Assembly: GCA_003451675.1 (NCBI GenBank)
Contig: DMCY01000074.1
Coordinates: 1 to 12,957, forward strand
Direction of reading: 5' to 3'
DNA: 12,957 nt
DNA from: Candidatus Atribacteria bacterium
GTDB taxonomy: Bacteria > Atribacterota > JS1 > SB-45 > 34-128
Part shown: piece after piece, positions 2,815-12,957 of the stretch
Layout of the letters: the number at the start of each line of letters is the position of its first letter
Position numbering within the stretch: position 1 is the first letter of the stretch
Position numbers and translations under genes: made by a program
The notes under the pieces: generated by a model
The model's database searches: none
What the model was told of the DNA's origin: nothing
What the model saw: only the letters and a program-made list of their open reading frames with translations

Positions 2815-2848
2815 TATTTACCACCTCTATCTTTTTAAACTATTAAAT

Positions 2849-2943
2849 GGTTAATTGGTTAGCTGGTTACTTAGTTAATTAGTTGATTAACTAACAAATT
2901 GGTTAACTAACTAACCAGGTAACCAAATAACTAGATAACTAAA
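2849..2943. repeat. inverted octamer array (rpsL-rpsG gap)
   Basis: On the + strand, GTTA or GTTG recurs every 8 nt at 2850, 2858, 2866, 2874 and 2882. The complementary TAAC then recurs in the same 8-nt register at 2888, 2904, 2912, 2920, 2928 and 2936; the slot at 2896 is degenerate. Units fit NYTRGTTA on the left and TAACYARN on the right. The two arms can pair over most of their length, so transcript or single-stranded DNA could form a long, AT-rich stem-loop of about 95 nt. The array ends eight bases from the rpsL stop codon and leaves 34 bp, with the ribosome binding site, before rpsG. Confidence 0.85.
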
Positions 2944-2951
2944 TTCTCTTA

Positions 2952-3335
2952 TTACTTACTTGCCTTCTTTGGTCTTTTAGATCCATATCTTGAACGCCCT
3001 TGCATTCTATTTTCTACTCCAGTAGTATCCATAACTCCTCTGACAATATGATATCTAACTCCTGGTAAATCTTTTACCCTTCCACCTCTTAAGAGTACAA
3101 TAGAATGTTCTTGAAGATTATGCCCTATTCCGGGAATATACGCAGTAACCTCCATATTATTAGTCAATCTTACTCGGGTGACTTTTCTTAAGGCGGAATT
3201 AGGTTTCTTAGGAGTTATAGTCCAAACTCTGGTACATACTCCTCTTTTTAAAGGACTACCCTGCAAAGACGGCGTATCAGATTTTTTAAAGACCTTTTTT
3301 CTACCTTTTCTTACTAATTGGTTTATGGTAGGCAT
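2952..3335 (-). CDS. rpsL: 30S ribosomal protein S12
   Basis: A complete 127-aa S12, a normal length. S12 sits at the decoding centre, where it influences accuracy and contacts the tRNA-EF-Tu complex and helices of 16S rRNA. The core motifs are present: [11 protein letters not shown] at the start, KRGVCTRV (30-37), [12 protein letters not shown] (41-52) and GHNLQEHS (71-78), followed by [14 protein letters not shown]. Numbering matches E. coli, with Lys43 and Lys88 retained, so the sequence looks streptomycin-sensitive. Asp89, which RimO methylthiolates in some bacteria, is also present. The ATG at 3335 has AAGGAAGGT at 3341-3349. Its own strong promoter lies just upstream, so this is probably the first gene of an rpsL-rpsG-fusA-tuf transcription unit. 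Confidence 0.98.
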
Positions 3336-3391
3336 ATCTTACCTTCCTTTTTCTAAATTTATCAACATCCTATAAATAAAAATACCTTTAT

Positions 3392-3420
3392 ATTCTAACA
3401 GCATCAGAATTTGATGTCAA
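3392..3420 (-). promoter_or_regulatory. sigma-70-type promoter of the rpsL (str) operon
   Basis: Read on the minus strand: a perfect -35 TTGACA (complement of 3415-3420), a 17-bp spacer and a -10 TAGAAT (complement of 3392-3397, 5/6 to consensus). The predicted start near 3385 gives a leader of about 50 nt before the rpsL ATG. It sits between the rpoC-side repeat array and rpsL. A dyad, ATTCTGA-N5-TTAGAAT (6/7 arms), covers the -10 and part of the spacer and could be an operator or chance. Confidence 0.8.
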
Positions 3421-3436
3421 GCTAAATTATATAAAA

Positions 3437-3534
3437 ACTCGTATCGAGTATCGCGTTAGTATTAAACTAAAAACTTAAAGCGAAAACCATAATTATTATT
3501 TAAGAATTCAGGAGCCAGTAGTCAGGAGTCAGAA
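3437..3534. repeat. heptamer array, rpsL side of the rpoC-rpsL gap
   Basis: Fourteen consecutive units fit one 7-nt register, for example TCGAGTA, TCGCGTT, AACTAAA, AACTTAA and AGCGAAA, then GCCAGTA, GTCAGGA and GTCAGAA (3514-3534). The last three are inverted relatives of units at 3588-3608 (about 16 of 21 positions complementary), so the two arrays in this gap can pair into an imperfect hairpin around an AT-rich loop. The first units resemble those in the rpsG-fusA gap and upstream of rpoB. The 359-bp gap holds no gene. Confidence 0.8.
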
Positions 3535-3587
3535 GAAAATAAAATAATTTAACGAAATAAAATAACCTTATATTCTAAAATAATTCA

Positions 3588-3698
3588 TTCTGGATTCTGT
3601 CTTCTGGCTTCTTTTTCTTAACCAGCTAACCAAGTAACTAAATAAACTTGTATCTTGTAACTAATATTTAAATCTAACGACTATTCACTATCGACTAA
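3588..3698. repeat. heptamer/octamer array running into the rpoC stop codon
   Basis: The units run TTCTGGA, TTCTGTC, TTCTGGC (3588-3608), then TAAC every 8 nt at 3619, 3627 and 3635, then heptamers in register from 3643 to 3698 ending CGACTAT, TCACTAT, CGACTAA. The left part is the inverted form of the block at 12674-12731. The terminal heptamers match 12793-12813 almost exactly in direct orientation. The final unit (3692-3698) contains the complement of the rpoC TAG stop (3695-3697), so the array overlaps the coding end. Confidence 0.8.
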
Positions 3699-6600
3699 TT
3701 AAGTTCCGGTTCTTGATCTGTGGTATTGTCTGACATTTTCTCTCTACTATCTTCATCTTCTTCTCTAAACATATCTATCTTCTTTTCTCTCTGCTCTCCC
3801 TCTGTCTCTTTAAATATTTCTTCCACTTTTTCTTCCTCCTCATGTGAGTAATCAACTTCTATTTCTCCGTATTTATTTAAACCTGTCCCTGCGGGTATTA
3901 TGTTACCAATAATAACATTTTCTTTTAAACCATAAAGCTTATCTACCTTCCCCTTGATAGAAGCATTGGTCAAAACATGAGTAGTCCTCTGAAATGATGC
4001 AGCAGACAGAAAACTTTCAGTAGAAAGGGAGGCTTGAGTAATGCCTTGGATTATGGGCATTCCTACTGCTACAAACTTCTTCCTTCTAATAAATCCTACA
4101 TTTTCAATTATATTAATGCATGCAATCTTATTGCTTGCCCTTACTTTTATTAAATCCAGATGTCTATTGCAAATTTCTGTAGCATGGTTCCTGGTTATTT
4201 TTTTGCCTCCATTAATTATTACTTCACCTGTTTCCGGATCCAAAATATCTAAAGCAGCAATTTTACCTAATACATTGTCGTAAAGGAATCCTAAAGTTCT
4301 ACCTTCTAAAGAAAAATATCTTCCATCTTCCAATGGCAGCTCACTTAATTTATACGATAATATTTTTTTAATTAAATTCTTGCTTATTATTTGATCCTTA
4401 TCTGCTATAATATTTCCGCTTACTGGATCTTTAATATCTTCGCCAATGGGTCGCCCAATAATTTCATCTTTAATTGATTTGATCAGTCCGTCTCTTACGG
4501 ATATCTCCTTAATTTCTTTCCATACCTTTATTCTATCTACCTTAGCTTTTATGATCTTATCCACTTCCGAGGAAGTAAGTTGCTGGTTTGCACTTACTAA
4601 AACTTGAGAATCTTCTGGACTAATAATATCTGCGGCAGCAATCCTGTCTTTTATCTTTTCGTAAATATCTGGTTTAACACAACTTATTGTTCTAATATTA
4701 TTATTAGCAATTTTTACTCCCATTTCTTTGCTAATAACCTCATTAAATTTTATCTTAGAATCACTTAGATTGTCTGTTTCAGTGTTGCCCTCTTGAATAT
4801 TATCTTTAATCCCACCAACCAATATATTGCCAGTTATTCTTTCTATAAAGGAATTTTCTCCTTTAACAATAGTAAATTTTTTATTTTCTTGATCCTCAAC
4901 TATCAATGTAGTAAAATCGCTGGTTTCAATTTTAGGTATAACTTTATTAGTAATAACTTCTCCTTCTTTAACTATTACCTCACCTGTTTTAACATTTACC
5001 AATGAAAAGATAGTTTTTTTATTTTCTAATAATTCTCTGTTCTTCTTACTGATTTCTTCATTTTCTTCTACTACTTTTTTATTAGCCTTTTCAAAATCTG
5101 ATACATATACTAATTCTCCGGATAGTAACTCAGAGTCACGTGCTGATCTGACATAAATCATATTTAAACGAGCAATTTGACGAATTATTGTCTCGATATG
5201 TTTGTCACTGATTTTAACCCCTTGTAATCTATATACTGCTTGTATTTCTTTTAATAAATATTCTTGAACTGCCTTAATTCCCTGAATCTTTAAAATATCA
5301 TGAGGATCAATAAACCCGACAGTCAATCTTTCTCCAGCTCTAATCTTTTGTCCTTTTTCTACTATTAGCCTTAAATCGGCGGAAATATTATAGATCTTTT
5401 TCTTTTCTGCGATAGCGTCTTTATTTTCTTTTGATGTTTCAGGATTAATTACTACCTGCTTCTTATAATTGTTTTCAGTAATAATTTCCTCTACTGTTCC
5501 ATTTATTTCACTGATTACTGCTTGTTTTTTCGGCTTTCTTACCTCAAAAAGTTGCTCTACCCGTGGAAGTCCCAAGGTAATATCTTCACCAGTTATTTTT
5601 ATCCCTCCGGTATGGAAAGTTCTTAAAGTTAATTGTGTCCCTGGTTCTCCAATAGATTGAGCTGCAATAACTCCTACGGCTTCTCCGATATTTACTAATT
5701 TACCAGTAGCCAAATCTTTGCCATAGCATTTAACACATATTCCATGTTCTGCTCTGCAGGTTAAAACCGATCTAACTTTAACCTCTTTTATCCCCATTTC
5801 CGAAATCTTTTTAGCGCTTCTTTCGTCAATTTCTTCCCCTAATCCAATTAATACTTCACCGGTCTTGGGATCTATTACCTCTTCTTGAGTTATTCGCCCT
5901 ACTAACCTTTCTTCTAAAGTCTCAATTACATTACCGTCTTCTTGAAAGGCTCTGATAATTATTCCGTCAGATGTACCACAGTCTTCTTCTCTGATAATTG
6001 CATCTTGAGCTACATCAACCAATCTTCTGGTTAAATATCCTGATTTTGAAGTTCTAAGAGCAGTATCTGCTAACCCTTTCCGAGCTCCATGAGTAGAAAT
6101 AAAATACTCTAACACTGACAAGCCATCTCTAAAGTTAGATCTAATAGGAAATTCAATAATCTTTCCCGAAGGATCAGCCATTAAACCCCTCATCCCGGCT
6201 AATTGACCAATCTGCCGTTTACTTCCTCGAGCTCCGGAATCAGCCATAATATATAAAGGATTAATTTTATCTAAATTCTTTAAAATAGCATTAACTACTT
6301 CATCTGCAGCTTTGGTCCAGGCGTTTACAATTTTCTGTTCTCTCTCATCCTCCATAATTAATCCGTAATTATATTGTTCTTGAATTTTATCTACTTCCTT
6401 TTCAGCCACTTCTAATATCTCATCTTTTTGAGAAGGTATTTCTAAATCTACTATCCCTATAGAAACCCCGGAAGAAGTAGCAAAATTAAAGCCTATTTTT
6501 TTAATCTTATCTAAAATATCAACAGTTATTTCTTTCCCGTATTTTCGGTAAACAAAAGATATAATTTTTTCTAAAGATTTTTTGGTTATAGTTAAATTAA

Positions 6601-8779
6601 TAAAATCCATATCGTCAGGGAAAATTTCATTAAAAATAATTCTACCAGCTGTTGTACCTTTTAAGGAATTATGTATTTTATATTTAATTTTAGCATGTAA
6701 ATCTATAAAGCCGTCCTCATAAGCCCTTATTGCCTCATTAGAATTACCGAAAATTTTCCCCTCACCTTTTTTCCCGCTCTCCCGCATAGTTAAATAATAA
6801 CAACCTAAAATTATATCCTGACTAGGTAAAGCTATAGGTAAGCCATTGGCTGGAGAAAGTATATTATTCGAAGATAACATTAAAATTTCTGCTTCAGCTT
6901 GAGCTTCCGTTGAAAGAGGAACATGGACTGCCATCTGATCACCATCAAAATCTGCATTAAAAGCTGCGCAAACTAAAGGATGAATCTGGATTGCATTTCC
7001 TTCCACCAAAACAGGTTTAAAAGCCTGAATACCCAAACGATGTAATGTTGGCGCTCGATTTAATAAAATAGAACGATCTTTTATGATTTTTTTTAATATA
7101 CTCCAGACTTCCGGCTTGCCTTTCTCCACTATTTTTTTAGCAGTTTTGATATTGTGAGCCAAATCCTGAGCCACTAATTCTCTCATTACATATGGCTTGA
7201 ACAACTCCAAAGCCATCTTTTTAGGTAATCCGCATTGGTAAAATTTTAAATTAGGTCCTACTACAATTACCGATCTTCCTGAGTAATCTACTCTTTTACC
7301 TAAAAGGTTCTGTCTGAATCTACCTTTCTTACCTTTTAACATATCACTTAACGATTTAAGGGGTCTATTCCCGGTGCCAAGCACTGCTCGCCCTCTCCTG
7401 CCGTTGTCTATCAAAGCATCAACCGCTTCCTGTAACATCCGTTTTTCATTTTTAATAATAATTTCCGGTGCCCCTAATTCTAATAATCTTTTTAATCTAT
7501 TATTCCGATTTATAACTCTCCTATACAGGTCATTCAAATCTGAAGTGGCAAAACGCCCTCCCTCTAATTGCACCATAGGCCTTAAGTCCGGAGGAATAAC
7601 TGGAATTATCTCTAATACCATCCATTCAGGTTTGCAATTAGATTTACGAAATGCTTCAACTATCTGCAATCTTTTAATAATCTTTTTCGTTTTTTGGCCA
7701 CTAGTTTTTTTTAATTCTTCGCGAAGTTCCAGAGTTAATTTATCTAAGTTCAACTCTTTCAATAACTCTTTAATTGCTTCTGCCCCTATCCCAGCTTTAA
7801 ATTCAGGATCATAATTACTTAGAAGGAGTTCTTCTATTTCTAAAATTATTTCTCCTCTTTTGTAAGAAGTATTACCAGGGTGTATCACTATGTAACAAGA
7901 CTCTTCAATGTTTTGAGTAGCTAATTTTGCCCTCAAGGATAAGTTTTTTTCTTCCTCTAATCTTTTTAAGTTGGTCTCAGAAATTAAGCCATTAACTTTA
8001 GTAATTCGATATTGGGTCTCCTTATTTTCTACCTCTTCTTCTTTAACTTCTTCCTTAAGTTCTTTAATACCTTCCTCAACCTCTTCTTTTTCTTCTTCGC
8101 TTTCAGATTCTTCCTCTTTGCTCACAGGGAACAATAATTCCTTTTGATAGAATATTTTACCAAATATTTTCTGCAGATCCTGATCCTCTTCCTTCGAAAT
8201 TACATCACCTATTTTATGAGAAAATATTTTTACTTTATTAATATTATAAACCGGTTCAGCATTAAATTTTTCATTATACTTTTTGTGAATACGGTATTCT
8301 GCATCTAAAATTATATCTCCTTTTTCTAAATCTGTCCCGCTTTTCTCAATAACTTCGAATAACTGTTCTCTTCTTCGATCTGGAGCATAGTATAATATCT
8401 TTTCTAAGTTACGAGGAGATATATCTAAAAGTAGAGATAAAGGGCTGGGTATAGCCTTAAAATACCAAACATGGGAAACAGGGGAAGCTAATTTAATATG
8501 CCCCATTCTTTCCCTTCTAGTAATAGATTTAGTAACTTCGACCCCACATCTATCGCAAATGACACCTTTGTATCGTATCCTTTTGTATTTTCCACAACTA
8601 CATTCCCAATCTTTAACTGGTCCGAATATTCTTTCACAAAATAAACCATCTTTCTCTGGTCTTAAAGTTCTATAATTGATAGTTTCAGGTTTTTTAACTT
8701 CACCATTAGACCATTTTTTTACTTGCTCTGGCGAAGCCAGTCCGATTTTGATCGAGTTAAAACTCTTCAAAATTGTCAA
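3695..8779 (-). CDS. rpoC: DNA-directed RNA polymerase subunit beta'
   Basis: A complete 1694-aa beta', much longer than in E. coli (about 1400) or Bacillus (about 1200). It forms the RNA polymerase clamp and active centre. Visible landmarks: the N-terminal zinc ribbon with Cys60, 62, 75 and 78; a nonconserved insertion around 160-340 with a Glu/Lys-rich stretch at about 219-255; and the catalytic NADFDGDQ motif (608-615) with Mg-binding Asp610, 612 and 614. The bridge helix is near 860-890, the uninterrupted trigger loop is near 900-935, and the second zinc site is Cys934, 1008, 1015 and 1018. An insertion of about 340 aa (roughly 1230-1570) then carries several repeated D-P-x-T-G-E modules before the conserved [19 protein letters not shown]. 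The C-terminal tail is strongly acidic. The start is TTG, fixed by AGGGGG eight bases upstream and by alignment to the family N-terminus. It follows rpoB by 188 bp, all repeat array, and ends inside another array. Confidence 0.97.
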
Positions 8780-8787
8780 TATAATTA

Positions 8788-8793
8788 CCCCCT
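8788..8793 (-). promoter_or_regulatory. ribosome binding site that fixes the rpoC TTG start
   Basis: AGGGGG on the minus strand, one mismatch from AGGAGG, ends eight bases before the TTG at 8779-8777. No ATG or GTG nearby would keep the conserved [18 protein letters not shown] start. The heptamer array stops at 8800, leaving this site free. Confidence 0.75.
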
Positions 8794-8799
8794 ATTAGA

Positions 8800-8967
8800 G
8801 TCGTTAGTGAGTAGTATCAGAGCGTAGAGTGTAAAGCTAAAAACGCAAAACCAAAACTTAAAACCTAAGAAAAAGTTTTGAATTTTGAATTATGGTTTTT
8901 CGCTTTTCGCTTTAAGTTTCTAGTTTAATGTTAACGCAATACGCAATACGATATACTATATACTAAT
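8800..8967. repeat. unbroken 24-unit heptamer array filling the rpoB-rpoC gap
   Basis: All 168 bp divide into 24 heptamers in one register. Outer left units include GTCGTTA, GTGAGTA and AGCGTAG. Inner left units are A-rich (AGCTAAA, AACGCAA, AACCAAA, ACTTAAA). The centre has TTTGAAT twice. Inner right units are T-rich (TTTCGCT twice, TTAAGTT, TCTAGTT). Outer right units are AACGCAA, TACGCAA, TACGATA, TACTATA and TACTAAT. The right half is roughly complementary to the left, so the spacer could form one long imperfect hairpin with its loop near 8870-8890. It ends one base into the rpoB stop codon (8968-8970 side) and stops just short of the rpoC ribosome binding site. Bases 8887-8927 match 12825-12865 at 36 of 41 positions without gaps. 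Confidence 0.88.
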
Positions 8968-11900
8968 TTAAGTTATTTCTTTCATTAAATTTTCATTAAT
9001 TTCATCTTTTAAATCGATATCTTCTTTAATATCTACTTCTTTATCTTGAGAATCTAAAACTTGTACATCTAAACATAAACTACGTAATTCTTTAATTAAA
9101 ACTTTAAATGATTCTGGCATGCCGGGGACAGGGATACATTCACCCTTAACAATAGCTTCATAAGTTTTAATTCTTCCCAACACATCATCTGATTTTATAG
9201 TTAAAAGCTCCTGGAGATTGTAAGCAGCTCCGTATCCTTCTAAAGCCCAAACTTCCATTTCCCCAAATCTTTGGCCTCCAAACTGTGCTTTTCCTCCTAA
9301 AGGTTGTTGGGTAACCAAAGAGTACGGGCCAGTAGAACGAGCATGAATTTTATCATCTACTAAATGGGATAATTTTAAAATATAGCTGTAACCTACAGTA
9401 ACCTTTAGATCAAAGGGTCTACCTGTTCTACCATCATAAAGAATTGTTTTACCATCTTTGGGCAAACCTGCTTCTATTAAAGATTGTTCAATTTCTTCTT
9501 CTTTTGCTCCATTAAAAACAGGAGTTATAACTCTAAGACCTAAAGTTTTAGCTACCCAGCCTAAATGTACTTCTAAAACTTGCCCCACATTCATCCGAGA
9601 GGGTACTCCTAAAGGGTTCAATACTATTTCTATTGGCGTACCATCTGACATAAAGGGCATATCAGCCTCAGGCAAAATTTTAGCAATAACTCCTTTATTT
9701 CCATGTCTTCCCGAAATCTTATCCCCTTCAGAAATCTTTCTTTTTTGGGCAATAAATATTTTTACTAATTGATTTACTCCCGGGGGAAGGTCGTCATTGT
9801 TTTCCCTGGAAAATACTTTTACGCCCATAACCTTACCTTTTTCACCATGGGGAACTCGGAGAGAAGTATCTCTTATTTCTCGAGCCTTTTCCCCAAAAAT
9901 TGCTCTCAATAATCTTTCCTCTGGCCCTAAATCTGTTTCGCCCTTAGGAGTTACTTTTCCTACTAAAATATCGCCTGATTCCACTTCTGCTCCAATTCGA
10001 ACTATTCCTCTTTCATCTAAGTTAGATAGGCTGCCTTCCCCGATATTAGGGATATCACAAGTTATTTCTTCCGGTCCTAATTTAGTATCTCGTGCTTCAC
10101 ACTCCTGTTCAGAAATATGAATAGAGGTGAAAGTATCTTCTCTAACTAATTTTTCACTAATCAAAATAGCATCCTCAAAATTATAGCCTTCCCAAGGCAT
10201 GTAAGCTATTAAAACATTCCTACCCAAAGAAAGACGCCCTTCAGAAGTTAAAGGACCATCAGCAAGCACATCTCCCTTCTTTATAATCATTCCTTCTTCT
10301 ATTAAAGGTATTTGATTTATACAAGTTCCCTGATTAGAACGAACGAATTTTTTTAATCTATATTCTTTTTGGATATTGTCAGTATTTTCAATAATTATCT
10401 TGTCTGCACTTACTTCTTTCACCAAGCCATCATCTTGGGAAATAAGGACTGCACCTGAGTCGACAGCAACTTTATTTTCCATTCCCGTTCCCACTAAAGG
10501 AACTTCGGGTTTTATTAAAGGTACAGATTGTCTCTGCATATTAGTGCCCATTAAAGCTCTGTTCGCATCATCGTGCTCTAAAAAGGGGATTAAACTAGCT
10601 GAAATGCTGGCAACCTGTTTGGGAGACACATCTATAAAATCTATTTCATCTGGTAGACACTCAATAATGTCTCCTCTGAACCGGCAGGGTACATCCTCTT
10701 GTGAAATCTTGTTATCTTTATCTATTTTTATATTTATTTGAGCAATTCTATACTTATCTTCTTCATCAGCGGAGAGGTAAACGATCTCATCAGTTATTTT
10801 CCCTTCTATCACCCTAAAATAAGGTGTCTCAATAAATCCTAATTCATTCACCCTTGCATAAATACAAAGAGATCCTATTAATCCAATATTAGGGCCTTCA
10901 GGAGTTTCAATGGGACAAATTCTGCCATAATGAGTATGGTGAACATCTCTCACTTCAAAGCCTGCTCTTTCTCTGGTTAAGCCTCCTGGGCCTAAGGCAG
11001 AAAGCCTTCTTTTATGAGTAATTTCAGATAAAGGATTAGTCTGATCCATAAACTGAGAAAGCTGACTACTCCCAAAAAACTGTCTAATAGTGGCTAATAA
11101 TGGCCGTGCATTTATCAAGGCTTGAGGAGTAATAGCAGAAACATCAGGTTGGATAGTCATCCTCTCCCGAATCACTCTTTCCATCCTGCTTAATCCAATG
11201 TAAAATTGATCCTGAAGTAACTCACCAACTGTCTTTATTCTTCTATTCCCTAAATGATCAATGTCGTCTATATACCCAATTCCCCTATATAAATTGACTA
11301 AATACCTTAAAGAAGCGACAATATCCTCTCTTGTTAACGAAGGACCTTTTTTTATTTTTATCTTTTCTTTACATTCTTTTATTTTGTATATTAAGGCATT
11401 AGTTAATTTATCACCTATACTACAAATTACTTCACCTGTTTTTGGATTGATTATTTCTTCAGCAACAATCGCATCTATAATCCCCTCATTAATTCCTTCG
11501 CTCAGTTTATCGACAATAGGCACAGAAGCTTCGTCTTTCTCGTTAAAAACAGTTACCGTTTCATTTTCAGAATTCAGCACTTTTACCTTTTCAATTCCTG
11601 AGTTTATTATTGCAGAAAATGTTTTCCGATTTATTTTCTCTTCTGCTTTTACGATTATTTTATTGTCTCTAGGATCAACAATGTCTTCGGCGGAGATTTT
11701 ACCTAATATCCGATCTTCAAAGTTTAATTTCCTATTAATTTTATATCTCCCGACTTTTGCTAAATCATATCTTTTAGGATCAAGAAGTAATCTATAAATT
11801 AATTGTCGGGTATTTCTTTCAGTCGGAGGCTCGCTGGGTCTCAATCTTCTAAACATTTCTATCAGGGCTTCTTTTTCATTGTTTGTATTATCTTTTTCTA

Positions 11901-12573
11901 AAGTTGTTTTTACAATCTCTTCGTAATCAAAAAGTTCCATTATTTCTTCATCATTTTCATATCCCAATGCTCTTAATAGAGTAGTTGCTGGAATTTTCCT
12001 TTTTTTATCAATTCGGACATAAATCATGTCGGAAGAATCAAATCCAAATTCTAGCCAGGATCCACGATTAGGTATAATTTTAAATTTATACAATGATTTG
12101 CTATTTTCATTTTTTTCTTCATCAAAATAAATACCGGGAGATCTTATTAATTGATTTACTATCACCCTTTCTGCTCCGTTAATAACGAAGCCTCCGTTTT
12201 CAGTCATAAGCGGTAACTCGCCCATAAAGACATCTTGCTCTTTAATTTCACCTGTCTTCTTGCTGATTAAATTTATCTTAACTTCTAAAGGAGCAGAGTA
12301 AGTTCCACCTTTTTCCCAACATCCGTAAGCAGAATCTTTACATTCCCCCAGTGAATAACTAATAAAATCTAAAATTAGATTACCGGTAAAGTCTTGAATG
12401 GGAAAAATGTTTATAAAAACTTCCTGCAACCCTTGCTTTTTTCTTTTATCAGGCGAGACGAACCTTTGTAAAAAATCTTCAAAAGATTTTTTTTGTATAT
12501 CCAATAAATTGGGGATTGGACATACTTCAGGTATTTTGGAATAATCTTTCATTTGATTATATTTATTGTGCAC
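8968..12573 (-). CDS. rpoB: DNA-directed RNA polymerase subunit beta
   Basis: A complete 1201-aa beta subunit, near the Bacillus length. With beta' it makes the catalytic cleft. Landmarks: [15 protein letters not shown] near the N-terminus; LIRSPGIYF near 140; and the rifampicin region [12 protein letters not shown] (500-511), with Asp510, His520 and Ser525 equivalent to E. coli 516, 526 and 531, all wild type. Further on are [19 protein letters not shown] with Glu800-Asp801, the flap, [12 protein letters not shown] with the active-site lysines Lys952 and Lys960, and the C-terminal clamp sequence [36 protein letters not shown]. Two D-P-x-T-G-E-like modules (cores near 300 and 376) lie between the lobe and the conserved [16 protein letters not shown]. 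The start is GTG at 12573; a downstream ATG (codon 8) has no ribosome binding site. No rplL is seen in the 384 bp upstream. Confidence 0.97.
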
Positions 12574-12580
12574 CGCAAAA

Positions 12581-12590
12581 CACCAACCTT
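12581..12590 (-). promoter_or_regulatory. weak ribosome binding site supporting the rpoB GTG start
   Basis: The minus strand reads AAGGTTGGTG. GGTG lies seven bases and AAGG 13 bases before the GTG. The alternative ATG at 12552 is preceded only by A and T-rich sequence without purine-rich complementarity. The site is weaker than those of the other genes. Confidence 0.5.
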
Positions 12591-12618
12591 TATATAATGA
12601 TTAAAATATTAAATTATT

Positions 12619-12647
12619 AGTATATAATGAAAAACGAAAAGCGTAAA
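12619..12647 (-). promoter_or_regulatory. possible proximal rpoB promoter
   Basis: Minus strand: TTTACG (complement of 12642-12647), 17 bp, TATACT (complement of 12619-12624), giving a leader of about 40 nt. The -35 matches only 4/6 and lies inside heptamer units, and the region is AT-rich, so a chance match is quite likely. Confidence 0.3.
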
Positions 12648-12906
12648 ACTATCTCGTATCTCGCTAAGAACTAGTTATTTGGTTAGTTAGTTACCTGGTT
12701 GAGAAAAAGAAGTCAGAATACAGAATCTGATTCTCTTTTTCTAAAAACTGAAAACCGATAACTGAAAACTTGCATTTAAAGCTAACGCCTAACGACTATT
12801 CACTAACGACTAGTTAAGAGTTTTGAATTATGCTTTTTTGCTTTTCGCTTTGCGTTTTTAGTTTATTGATTTATCCTACACGCTAAACGCTGTACACTCT
12901 ATGCTA
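12629..12906. repeat. long composite heptamer/octamer array upstream of rpoB, copy 2
   Basis: Heptamers GAAAAAC, GAAAAGC and GTAAAAC open the array, followed by TATCTCG twice, CTAAGAA and CTAGTTA (12650-12677). GTTA or GTTG then recurs every 8 nt at 12674, 12682, 12690 and 12698. From 12711 to 12906, 28 heptamers keep a single 7-nt register (196 bp), including AACTGAA, AACCGAT, GCTAACG, CCTAACG, TTCGCTT, TGCGTTT, CACGCTA and AACGCTG. AGAAAAAGAA (12702-12711) can pair with TTCTCTTTTTCT (12731-12742). The opening A-rich units are complementary to the T-rich units near 12844-12860. Most of the 384-bp gap before rpoB is this array; the remainder holds only promoter candidates and no gene. Confidence 0.85.
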
Positions 12907-12925
12907 TTTATTTCCGTAAATTGTT

Positions 12926-12954
12926 ATTTTATCATTTATTAATTAAAAATGCAA
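12926..12954 (-). promoter_or_regulatory. extended -10 promoter candidate for rpoBC
   Basis: Minus strand: TTGCAT (complement of 12949-12954, 4/6), a 17-bp spacer, and TAAAAT (complement of 12926-12931, 5/6) preceded by TG one base upstream, an extended -10. It is at the window edge, just outside the array. A start near 12919 would give an unusually long leader of about 345 nt made mostly of heptamer repeats. Confidence 0.5.
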
Positions 12955-12957
12955 GAA

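Follow-up and report, generated by a model that had tools for sequence, protein, structure and literature searches.

The segment at 12711-12906, upstream of rpoB, is made of several short heptamer families placed end to end, and these belong to a repertoire of blocks common to the intergenic spacers of one Atribacterota clade. We put a probability of roughly 0.56 on the reading that the segment is a mosaic drawn from this shared repertoire of heptamer blocks, formed at the DNA level by slippage and by recombination between spacers. The spacers of the clade have a 7-nt period and a common stock of families, differ from one another by tandem gaps of 7 nt, and carry copies of each other in both orientations at non-orthologous positions. 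Between co-directional genes their families are ordered inward from the borders, and many orthologous spacers differ wholesale.

The segment lies in the predicted leader of rpoB

The window, i.e. the whole stretch of 12,957 nt that was analysed, contains five genes, all on the minus strand: rpoB (8968-12573), rpoC (3695-8779), rpsL (2952-3335), rpsG (2344-2814) and fusA (84-2147). We take the second gene to be rpoC from its position and from recognition of its protein, and presume the identity of rpsL, rpsG and fusA from recognition of their proteins. RpoB of the window is 95% identical to that of its nearest relative, an Atribacterota MAG (L001 of G001), and 87% and 77% identical to its counterparts in G003 (L003) and G002 (L002), respectively. 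The heptamer segment is held by the spacer upstream of rpoB (12574-12957, minus strand; lag-7 z 8.7), which is predicted to be the leader of this gene. Scanning of 12500-12957 yielded five promoter-like sites where 2.0 were expected, and no terminator. A TTGCAT/TAAAAT pair seen by eye at 12954-12926 on the minus strand is absent from these five sites. The distance from promoter-like hexamers to rpoB, also judged by eye, is about 350 nt in the window and about 50 nt in G031.

The 7-nt period is carried by a chain of short families

An earlier note on this DNA had described 12711-12906 as 28 heptamers in one unbroken register and had named autocorrelation against shuffled sequence as the check. 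Identity at lag 7 was 0.545 (z 8.1), a value reached by none of 1000 dinucleotide-preserving shuffles, and with the same shuffles lags 14 and 21 gave z 5.1 and 4.7, so that peaks are present at all three lags and the 7-nt period is real. The single register did not survive. In a running test with 21-nt windows placed every 14 nt, lag 7 was the best lag at every start from 12742 to 12882 and also at 12700, lags 6 and 8 outscored it at starts 12714 and 12728, and lag 4 was best just upstream, at starts 12672 and 12686; the main stretch under lag 7 thus spans roughly 12742-12896. Identity at multiples of 7 was at background beyond lag 35 (0.259 for lags 28-98, 0.275 for other lags). Given this loss of phase and the better scores of lags 6 and 8 near the left end, we regard the segment as a chain of short families rather than one register. 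The period is not special to the rpoB spacer, as lag-7 z was 7.9 at 8780-8967, 4.6 at 3336-3694 and 3.5 at 2148-2343; the spacer at 2815-2951 has a period of 8/16/4 instead (lag-7 z 0.3).

Read along the forward strand, the rpoB spacer begins its succession of blocks with a GAAAAGCG-type heptamer block of family F3 (12630-12649), which forms an inverted repeat with 12834-12856 at 78%. It is followed by a TCTCGTA block of family F2 (12650-12663), a GTTA octamer/tetramer block of family F4 with a period of 4/8 and not 7 (12664-12700), and a GTCAGAATACAGAAT block of weak period with the small palindrome AGAATCTGATTCT (family F5, 12701-12741). Then come an AAAACTG block of 3.9 units (F6, 12742-12770), a CTAACGA block of 4.4 units (F1, 12782-12812), a TTTTGAATTATG/TTTTCGC block of families F8 and F3 (12816-12866) and a ACGCTAAACGCTGTACACTCTATGCTA block (F7, 12872-12906). 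The GTTA octamer/tetramer palindrome, found at 2815-2951 and at 12664-12700, behaves like the heptamer families but with a period of 8.

Much of this succession recurs elsewhere in the window. The stretch 12650-12791 is matched within the rpsG-fusA spacer by a forward-strand copy at 2173-2337 (77% over 165 columns), and the two differ by gaps of 16 nt in the octamer block and 7 nt in the heptamer block. A second forward-strand copy, that of 12777-12906, lies at 8832-8965 in the rpoB-rpoC spacer (70%) and includes a 32-nt inverted repeat (8832-8863 and 8883-8914, 81% complementary), and an inverted partial copy of 12666-12865 is found at 3463-3656 on the minus strand in the rpoC-rpsL spacer (65%). 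The rpsL-rpsG spacer (2815-2951, minus strand) is a period-8/4 palindrome of GTTA units (z about 7 at lags 16 and 8; hairpin z 7.9), and its matches to the rpoB spacer are short (29-37 nt).

The repertoire is common to one Atribacterota clade

Matches to the segment numbered 46 in G001, 17 in G002 and 43 in G003. In sampled spacers, lag 7 exceeded the other lags in each of the 12 genomes of the clade (z 3.1 to 12.4), and the window's four between-gene spacers gave z 3.7; coding DNA showed no lag-7 peak. Analysis of five other Atribacterota revealed a lag-7 signal in G043, G048 and G008 (z 4.9-5.1), a weak one in G040 (2.1) and none in G028 (0.0). Under a stricter threshold for runs, G043 and G008 still had some, and G048, G040 and G028 had none. 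At this threshold no sampled genome had more than two runs for periods 5, 6, 9 or 10, compared with up to 32 for period 7 and up to 14 for period 8. In four samples (the window, G032, G035 and G038) period 8 gave more runs than period 7.

Single families differ in their range. The GCGAAAA family was above its reversed control chiefly in G001-G003, G031 and G033-G039, with counts of 4 to 0 in G030 and 4 to 5 in G032. Of the 50 genomes, 21 had the CGTATAT family, G042-G045 and G049 among them. Minimal F1 palindromes were detected in 3 of the 50 genomes by an exact, and hence strict, pattern. Two similarly strict exact patterns of 24 and 21 nt had no match in viral contigs, and a distant BLAST search, in which simple sequence is masked, had none in plasmids. 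In G008, neighbouring spacers (C1:512901-516078) carry plant-telomere-like CCCTAAA arrays. CCCTAAA was ruled out as a phylum-wide family, as the exact 15-mer was found in this one genome of 50, within one 3-kb stretch. Repeats of the GTCATTGCGAGCGAA type are nested within heptamer spacers of G035 (rpsL-rpsG, L193) and G003 (L128); similar repeats are known from many phyla.

Spacers gain and lose whole units and are often replaced entirely

When 407 spacers, a few of which were present in duplicate under different names, were compared all against all, 653 homologous pairs emerged; 374 run in the same direction and the other 279 are inverted relative to each other. Among the inverted pairs, the rpsL-rpsG spacer of G036 and the rpoB-rpoC spacer of the window are 93% identical over 169 nt. 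Small gaps dominate these alignments, with 460 of 1 nt, 132 of 2 nt, 69 of 3 nt and 37 of 4 nt, and a second peak is formed by 7-nt gaps (70, against 21 of 5 nt, 21 of 6 nt, 27 of 8 nt, three of 9 nt and two of 10 nt; 14-nt gaps numbered eight), in counts to which related pairs contribute shared events. In a non-redundant set of 73 pairs, in which no spacer was used twice, seven of nine 7-nt gaps, three of eight 8-nt gaps and two of seven 4-nt gaps duplicated their neighbour, as did none of the four 6-nt and five 5-nt gaps; no neighbour-duplicating gap was seen in this set at other lengths of at least 4 nt (5, 6, 9, 11, 14, 18, 21). Some excess of 7-nt gaps is expected from the alignment of periodic sequence itself. 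The data support a change of block length by gain and loss of whole units, and it is in this form that the 'ongoing unit-wise amplification' of the earlier note stands, given the 7- and 16-nt gaps between the copies in the window and the tandem gaps of the 73 pairs.

Many orthologous spacers are wholly different between sister species while the genes around them stay alike. Comparison of the window with eight close relatives, using spacers of at least 80 nt, gave 181 orthologous spacer pairs, 36 of which align over at least 90% and 122 over less than half, with 23 between. Twelve of the 122 set a full rpoC-rpsL spacer against one of 81 nt in G037 or G038, shortened by the stop-codon rule, and in two one of the spacers contains a stretch of N. 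Two conserved spacers, rplT-pheS and infC-rplT, the latter of which we take to contain rpmI, account for 19 of the 36 well-aligned pairs. The rplT-pheS spacer (L245 and its orthologues) is fully alignable across the genomes that were compared, keeps a length of 218-220 nt and lacks the usual turnover; it may harbor a hidden small gene or a leader. By the stop-codon rule, the rpoC frame of G037 and G038 (L196 and L195) traverses most of what other genomes have as spacer and ends some 80 nt short of rpsL.

Families read inward from both borders of co-directional spacers

In the first sample of co-directional spacers, the 5' half mostly carried each of the larger families in forward and the 3' half in reverse orientation (31/35 and 26/29, respectively, for F1; 24/25 and 22/24 for F2; 21/21 and 14/17 for F4), the families having been defined from str-operon spacers that belong to this sample. 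The same polarity was seen in 28 later loci (forward in the 5' half 57/62, reverse in the 3' half 50/66). Two loci were then dropped, one that overlapped an earlier locus by about three quarters and one contained in another, and the co-directional spacers of the remaining 26 gave 52/57 and 46/62 (Fisher p about 1e-13), in matches that are not fully independent because many of the 26 loci are mutual orthologues and three overlap earlier loci by a few per cent. These 26 loci had 119 matches in co-directional spacers (43.5 kb of spacer in all) against seven coding matches in 270 kb. F8 ran against the trend, with six reverse matches in the 5' half and four in the 3' half. Divergent spacers of the 26 loci showed no polarity in eight matches (forward 3 and 1, reverse 3 and 1), and convergent spacers held one match in the non-overlapping set and five when overlapping loci were included. 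Inward polarity, seen in co-directional spacers alone, may thus be tied to the direction of transcription. Among the matches of the CGTATAT family listed for G033, eight forward/reverse pairs within 500 nt face inward and none outward, as judged by eye.

As the families read inward from both borders, co-directional spacers tend to be concentric palindromes, and the order of their layers is largely conserved: F3 lies outside F8 in 20 cases to 0 and F2 outside the GTAG palindrome in 20 to 1, with exceptions for K outside F4 in the left arm (1 to 5) and F1 outside F2 (14 to 4). Hairpin z was above 4 in 60 of 212 co-directional clade spacers, in 7 of 49 spacers of other Atribacterota and in 10 of 65 of G002. 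When the left arm of a spacer was matched to its own right arm and to the right arms of other spacers, the own arm was in the best 5% for 58 of the 212, with a split point that was chosen on the own score and so favours the own arm. The uvrB-uvrA spacer of G031 (L261) is 39 nt long and consists of the outermost layer alone, its core TTAGTCGTTAACGACTAA being a perfect 18-nt palindrome; in G033 and G036 the same outer layer encloses about 200 nt. The inner arms of GTAGGGG...CCCC palindromes are variable yet complementary.

Slippage and recombination between spacers as the preferred origin

In the reading that we prefer, blocks would gain or lose whole units by replication slippage, and recombination through shared blocks, rather than a transposase, would copy, invert and swap larger cassettes between spacers. 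The step of 7 nt, less often 8, would stem from the copying machinery rather than from a bound protein. Slippage alone yields direct repeats and leaves the inverted concentric order unexplained; candidate routes by which both arms may come to carry one family are hairpin-templated correction and nested insertion. For the latter, examined as a preference of insertions for the palindrome centre, there was no overall support: an ungapped test gave 1 of 42 events, against 2.5% of random sites, and a gapped test 6 of 42, against 4.6% (mean rank 0.47, p 0.24). Striking single cases of insertion at the centre do occur: some small palindromes of the CTGCCTGTGCGT type lie at the middle of a further palindrome of their own kind, and the loop of the rpoB-rpoC type hairpin has received insertions. 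A bolder version of the preferred reading, which we hold only tentatively, is that the spacers are self-organising concentric palindromes, with an inherent copying step of 7 (sometimes 8) nt, matched arms and swapping of cassettes. If this were true, most non-coding DNA would be made by one hairpin-and-slippage cycle, a palindrome-building genome process of fixed unit length that needs no dedicated enzyme.

The strongest competitor, possible though clearly less probable than slippage with recombination, is that the cassettes are miniature mobile elements, MITE- or REP-like and bounded by heptamer terminal inverted repeats, and that a transposase acting in trans, e.g. a REP-associated tyrosine transposase, moves them. 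Dispersal of copies in both orientations at non-orthologous sites, and their high identity between species, would be expected of such elements; the outer families F1 and F2 occur at both borders and resemble inverted ends, GTAGGGG palindromes are nested inside spacers, and 34 of the phylum's 50 genomes have Y1_Tnp. The presence of Y1_Tnp is, however, uncoupled from that of the arrays: G034 has arrays and no Y1_Tnp match, whereas G040 and G045 have seven matches each and few or no GCGAAAA arrays. Moreover, left and right families, compared by eye, are often mismatched, as expected of recombinants and not of intact elements. Thirty-four candidate insertions, inspected by eye, comprise about five small G+C-rich palindromes, the rest being longer and mixed. 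Some cassettes could nevertheless have been moved by an unrecognised transposase.

We consider it improbable that the blocks act in RNA as regulatory or stabilising hairpins, or as spaced protein-binding sites, roles of the kind suggested for the TAACTGA repeats of Beggiatoaceae, with selection maintaining the 7-nt spacing. Blocks often abut stop codons and ribosome-binding sites, the genes on either side of them are probably co-transcribed, and their inner parts can pair, all of which would suit such a role. Yet hairpin mismatches in 73 co-directional spacers were nearly symmetric, with 110 G-U and 100 A-C where composition predicts a ratio of 1.02, under a scoring that gave G-U no advantage. 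Selection on RNA should favour G-U on the transcribed strand; with G-U about equal to A-C, the inverted order is better understood as a property of the DNA. RNAalifold analysis of 19 copies of the rpoB-rpoC cassette gave consensus energies of -1.7 and -0.2 on the two strands, i.e. near zero. On either strand G-U abounded among its few predicted pairs (46 to 2 and 55 to 15); we attribute this to the energy model, since no pair was left when G-U was barred. Two Watson-Crick types occurred at 3 of 15 and at 6 of 29 of the predicted pairs. A search of Rfam returned no match at gathering score. A regulatory RNA with a consensus structure was rejected on the near-zero energy and the lack of a strand-specific excess of G-U over A-C. 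The different cassettes carried by many orthologous spacers also argue against a role in RNA, and the data do not support the 'selection on spacing' proposed in the earlier note, given that phase is lost beyond about 35 nt and that the hairpins lack a clear RNA-strand asymmetry.

Addition of heptamers by a templated synthesis enzyme, either a reverse transcriptase or telomerase-like, is very unlikely. It would fit a period that stays constant while sequence varies between families, and the telomere-like arrays of G008, but the latter are confined to the single stretch described above, and RVT_1 is present in 10 of 50 genomes and in three of the 13 of the array clade (G032, G038 and G039), drafts being partly incomplete in both counts. 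As gene presence does not track the arrays, transposase and reverse transcriptase are both disfavoured as drivers. Least credible of all, and refuted by the results, is chance low complexity of A+T-rich DNA or an assembly artefact: clade spacers do have only 28-35% G+C, but the signal is specific in period, exceeds every shuffle, recurs in 12 separate genome assemblies and gives no lag-7 peak in four Firmicute control loci of just 1.6-2.2 kb of spacer each.

Relation to known heptamer and palindrome systems

It has long been asked, and little tested, why bacteria prefer heptamers when it comes to longer simple repeats. One clade now offers many heptamer families in every sampled genome, with internal controls in coding DNA, in other periods and in sister lineages. 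Together with these controls, the single-unit differences between paralogous spacers and the ordered palindromic layers make it possible to test, in close strains, where the 7-nt step comes from and how spacers turn over. The spacers also carry a warning, as those around conserved operons, e.g. rpoB-rpoC, can differ wholly between sister species. Searches of open-licence papers gave no title and no abstract that deals with such repeats in Atribacterota.

Cyanobacterial heptanucleotide repeats, known as STRR, had been named in the earlier note as a precedent. The precedent holds as an analogy, in the 7-nt unit and its dispersal, and goes no further: STRR units are near-perfect and are not known to form layered palindromes, unlike the Atribacterota families.

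As in the multicopy elements described for Geobacter metallireducens (PMC2700814), where in the parts of that paper on repeats four or five heptamers stand in tandem and one class is drawn folding back, the units here are tandem heptamers in many copies; the Geobacter elements have a short fixed consensus (GGGACCG; MTYCTGA), and GGGACCG also occurs within genes. The TAACTGA direct repeats of marine Beggiatoaceae, for which translational roles were proposed (MacGregor 2015, PMC4679880), are likewise heptamers that stand between genes and close to them, those for ribosomal proteins among these. As presented in the sections of that paper on TAACTGA, they have a single fixed unit that in most cases points forward and lies shortly before a start codon, and related heptamers are rarely or never repeated. 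In the window TAACTGA occurs singly at 2305 and 12759 in spacers, and in genes at 1338 and, reversed, at 10790; direct repeats of it just upstream of start codons are absent. GTAG-tagged REP (Di Nocera 2013, PMC3733652) resemble the present blocks in being dispersed intergenic palindromes, often paired and inverted, and differ, as the relevant passages describe them, in their length of 20-40 bp, their GTAG tag and an often linked transposase gene. The heptamer families have no GTAG tag at an end, whereas the separate, nested GTAGGGG palindromes do.

A further parallel is offered by the bacterial heptameric repeats treated by Rehm et al. 2015 (PMC4692102), where, in the parts on their occurrence, a 2007 survey is cited for the over-representation of heptameric simple repeats in bacteria, Calothrix heptanucleotides are mentioned, and the hypothesis is quoted that 7 nt is the length of DNA contacted by the polymerase, favouring slippage. 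Those repeats and ours are intergenic, change length between close species and include some inverted pairs. The spacers studied here share with them 7-nt tandem units above chance and length variation by whole units between relatives. They lack perfect or near-perfect runs of one unit, having instead several degenerate families whose phase is lost after about 35 nt. As far as the same parts of that paper describe them, its repeats have one G-rich unit (GGGNATC, GGGGAYT), whereas Atribacterota have many degenerate families, ordered inverted layers and spacers that differ as a whole. The excess of heptamers is thus already known, and it is their layered, exchangeable form that is new.
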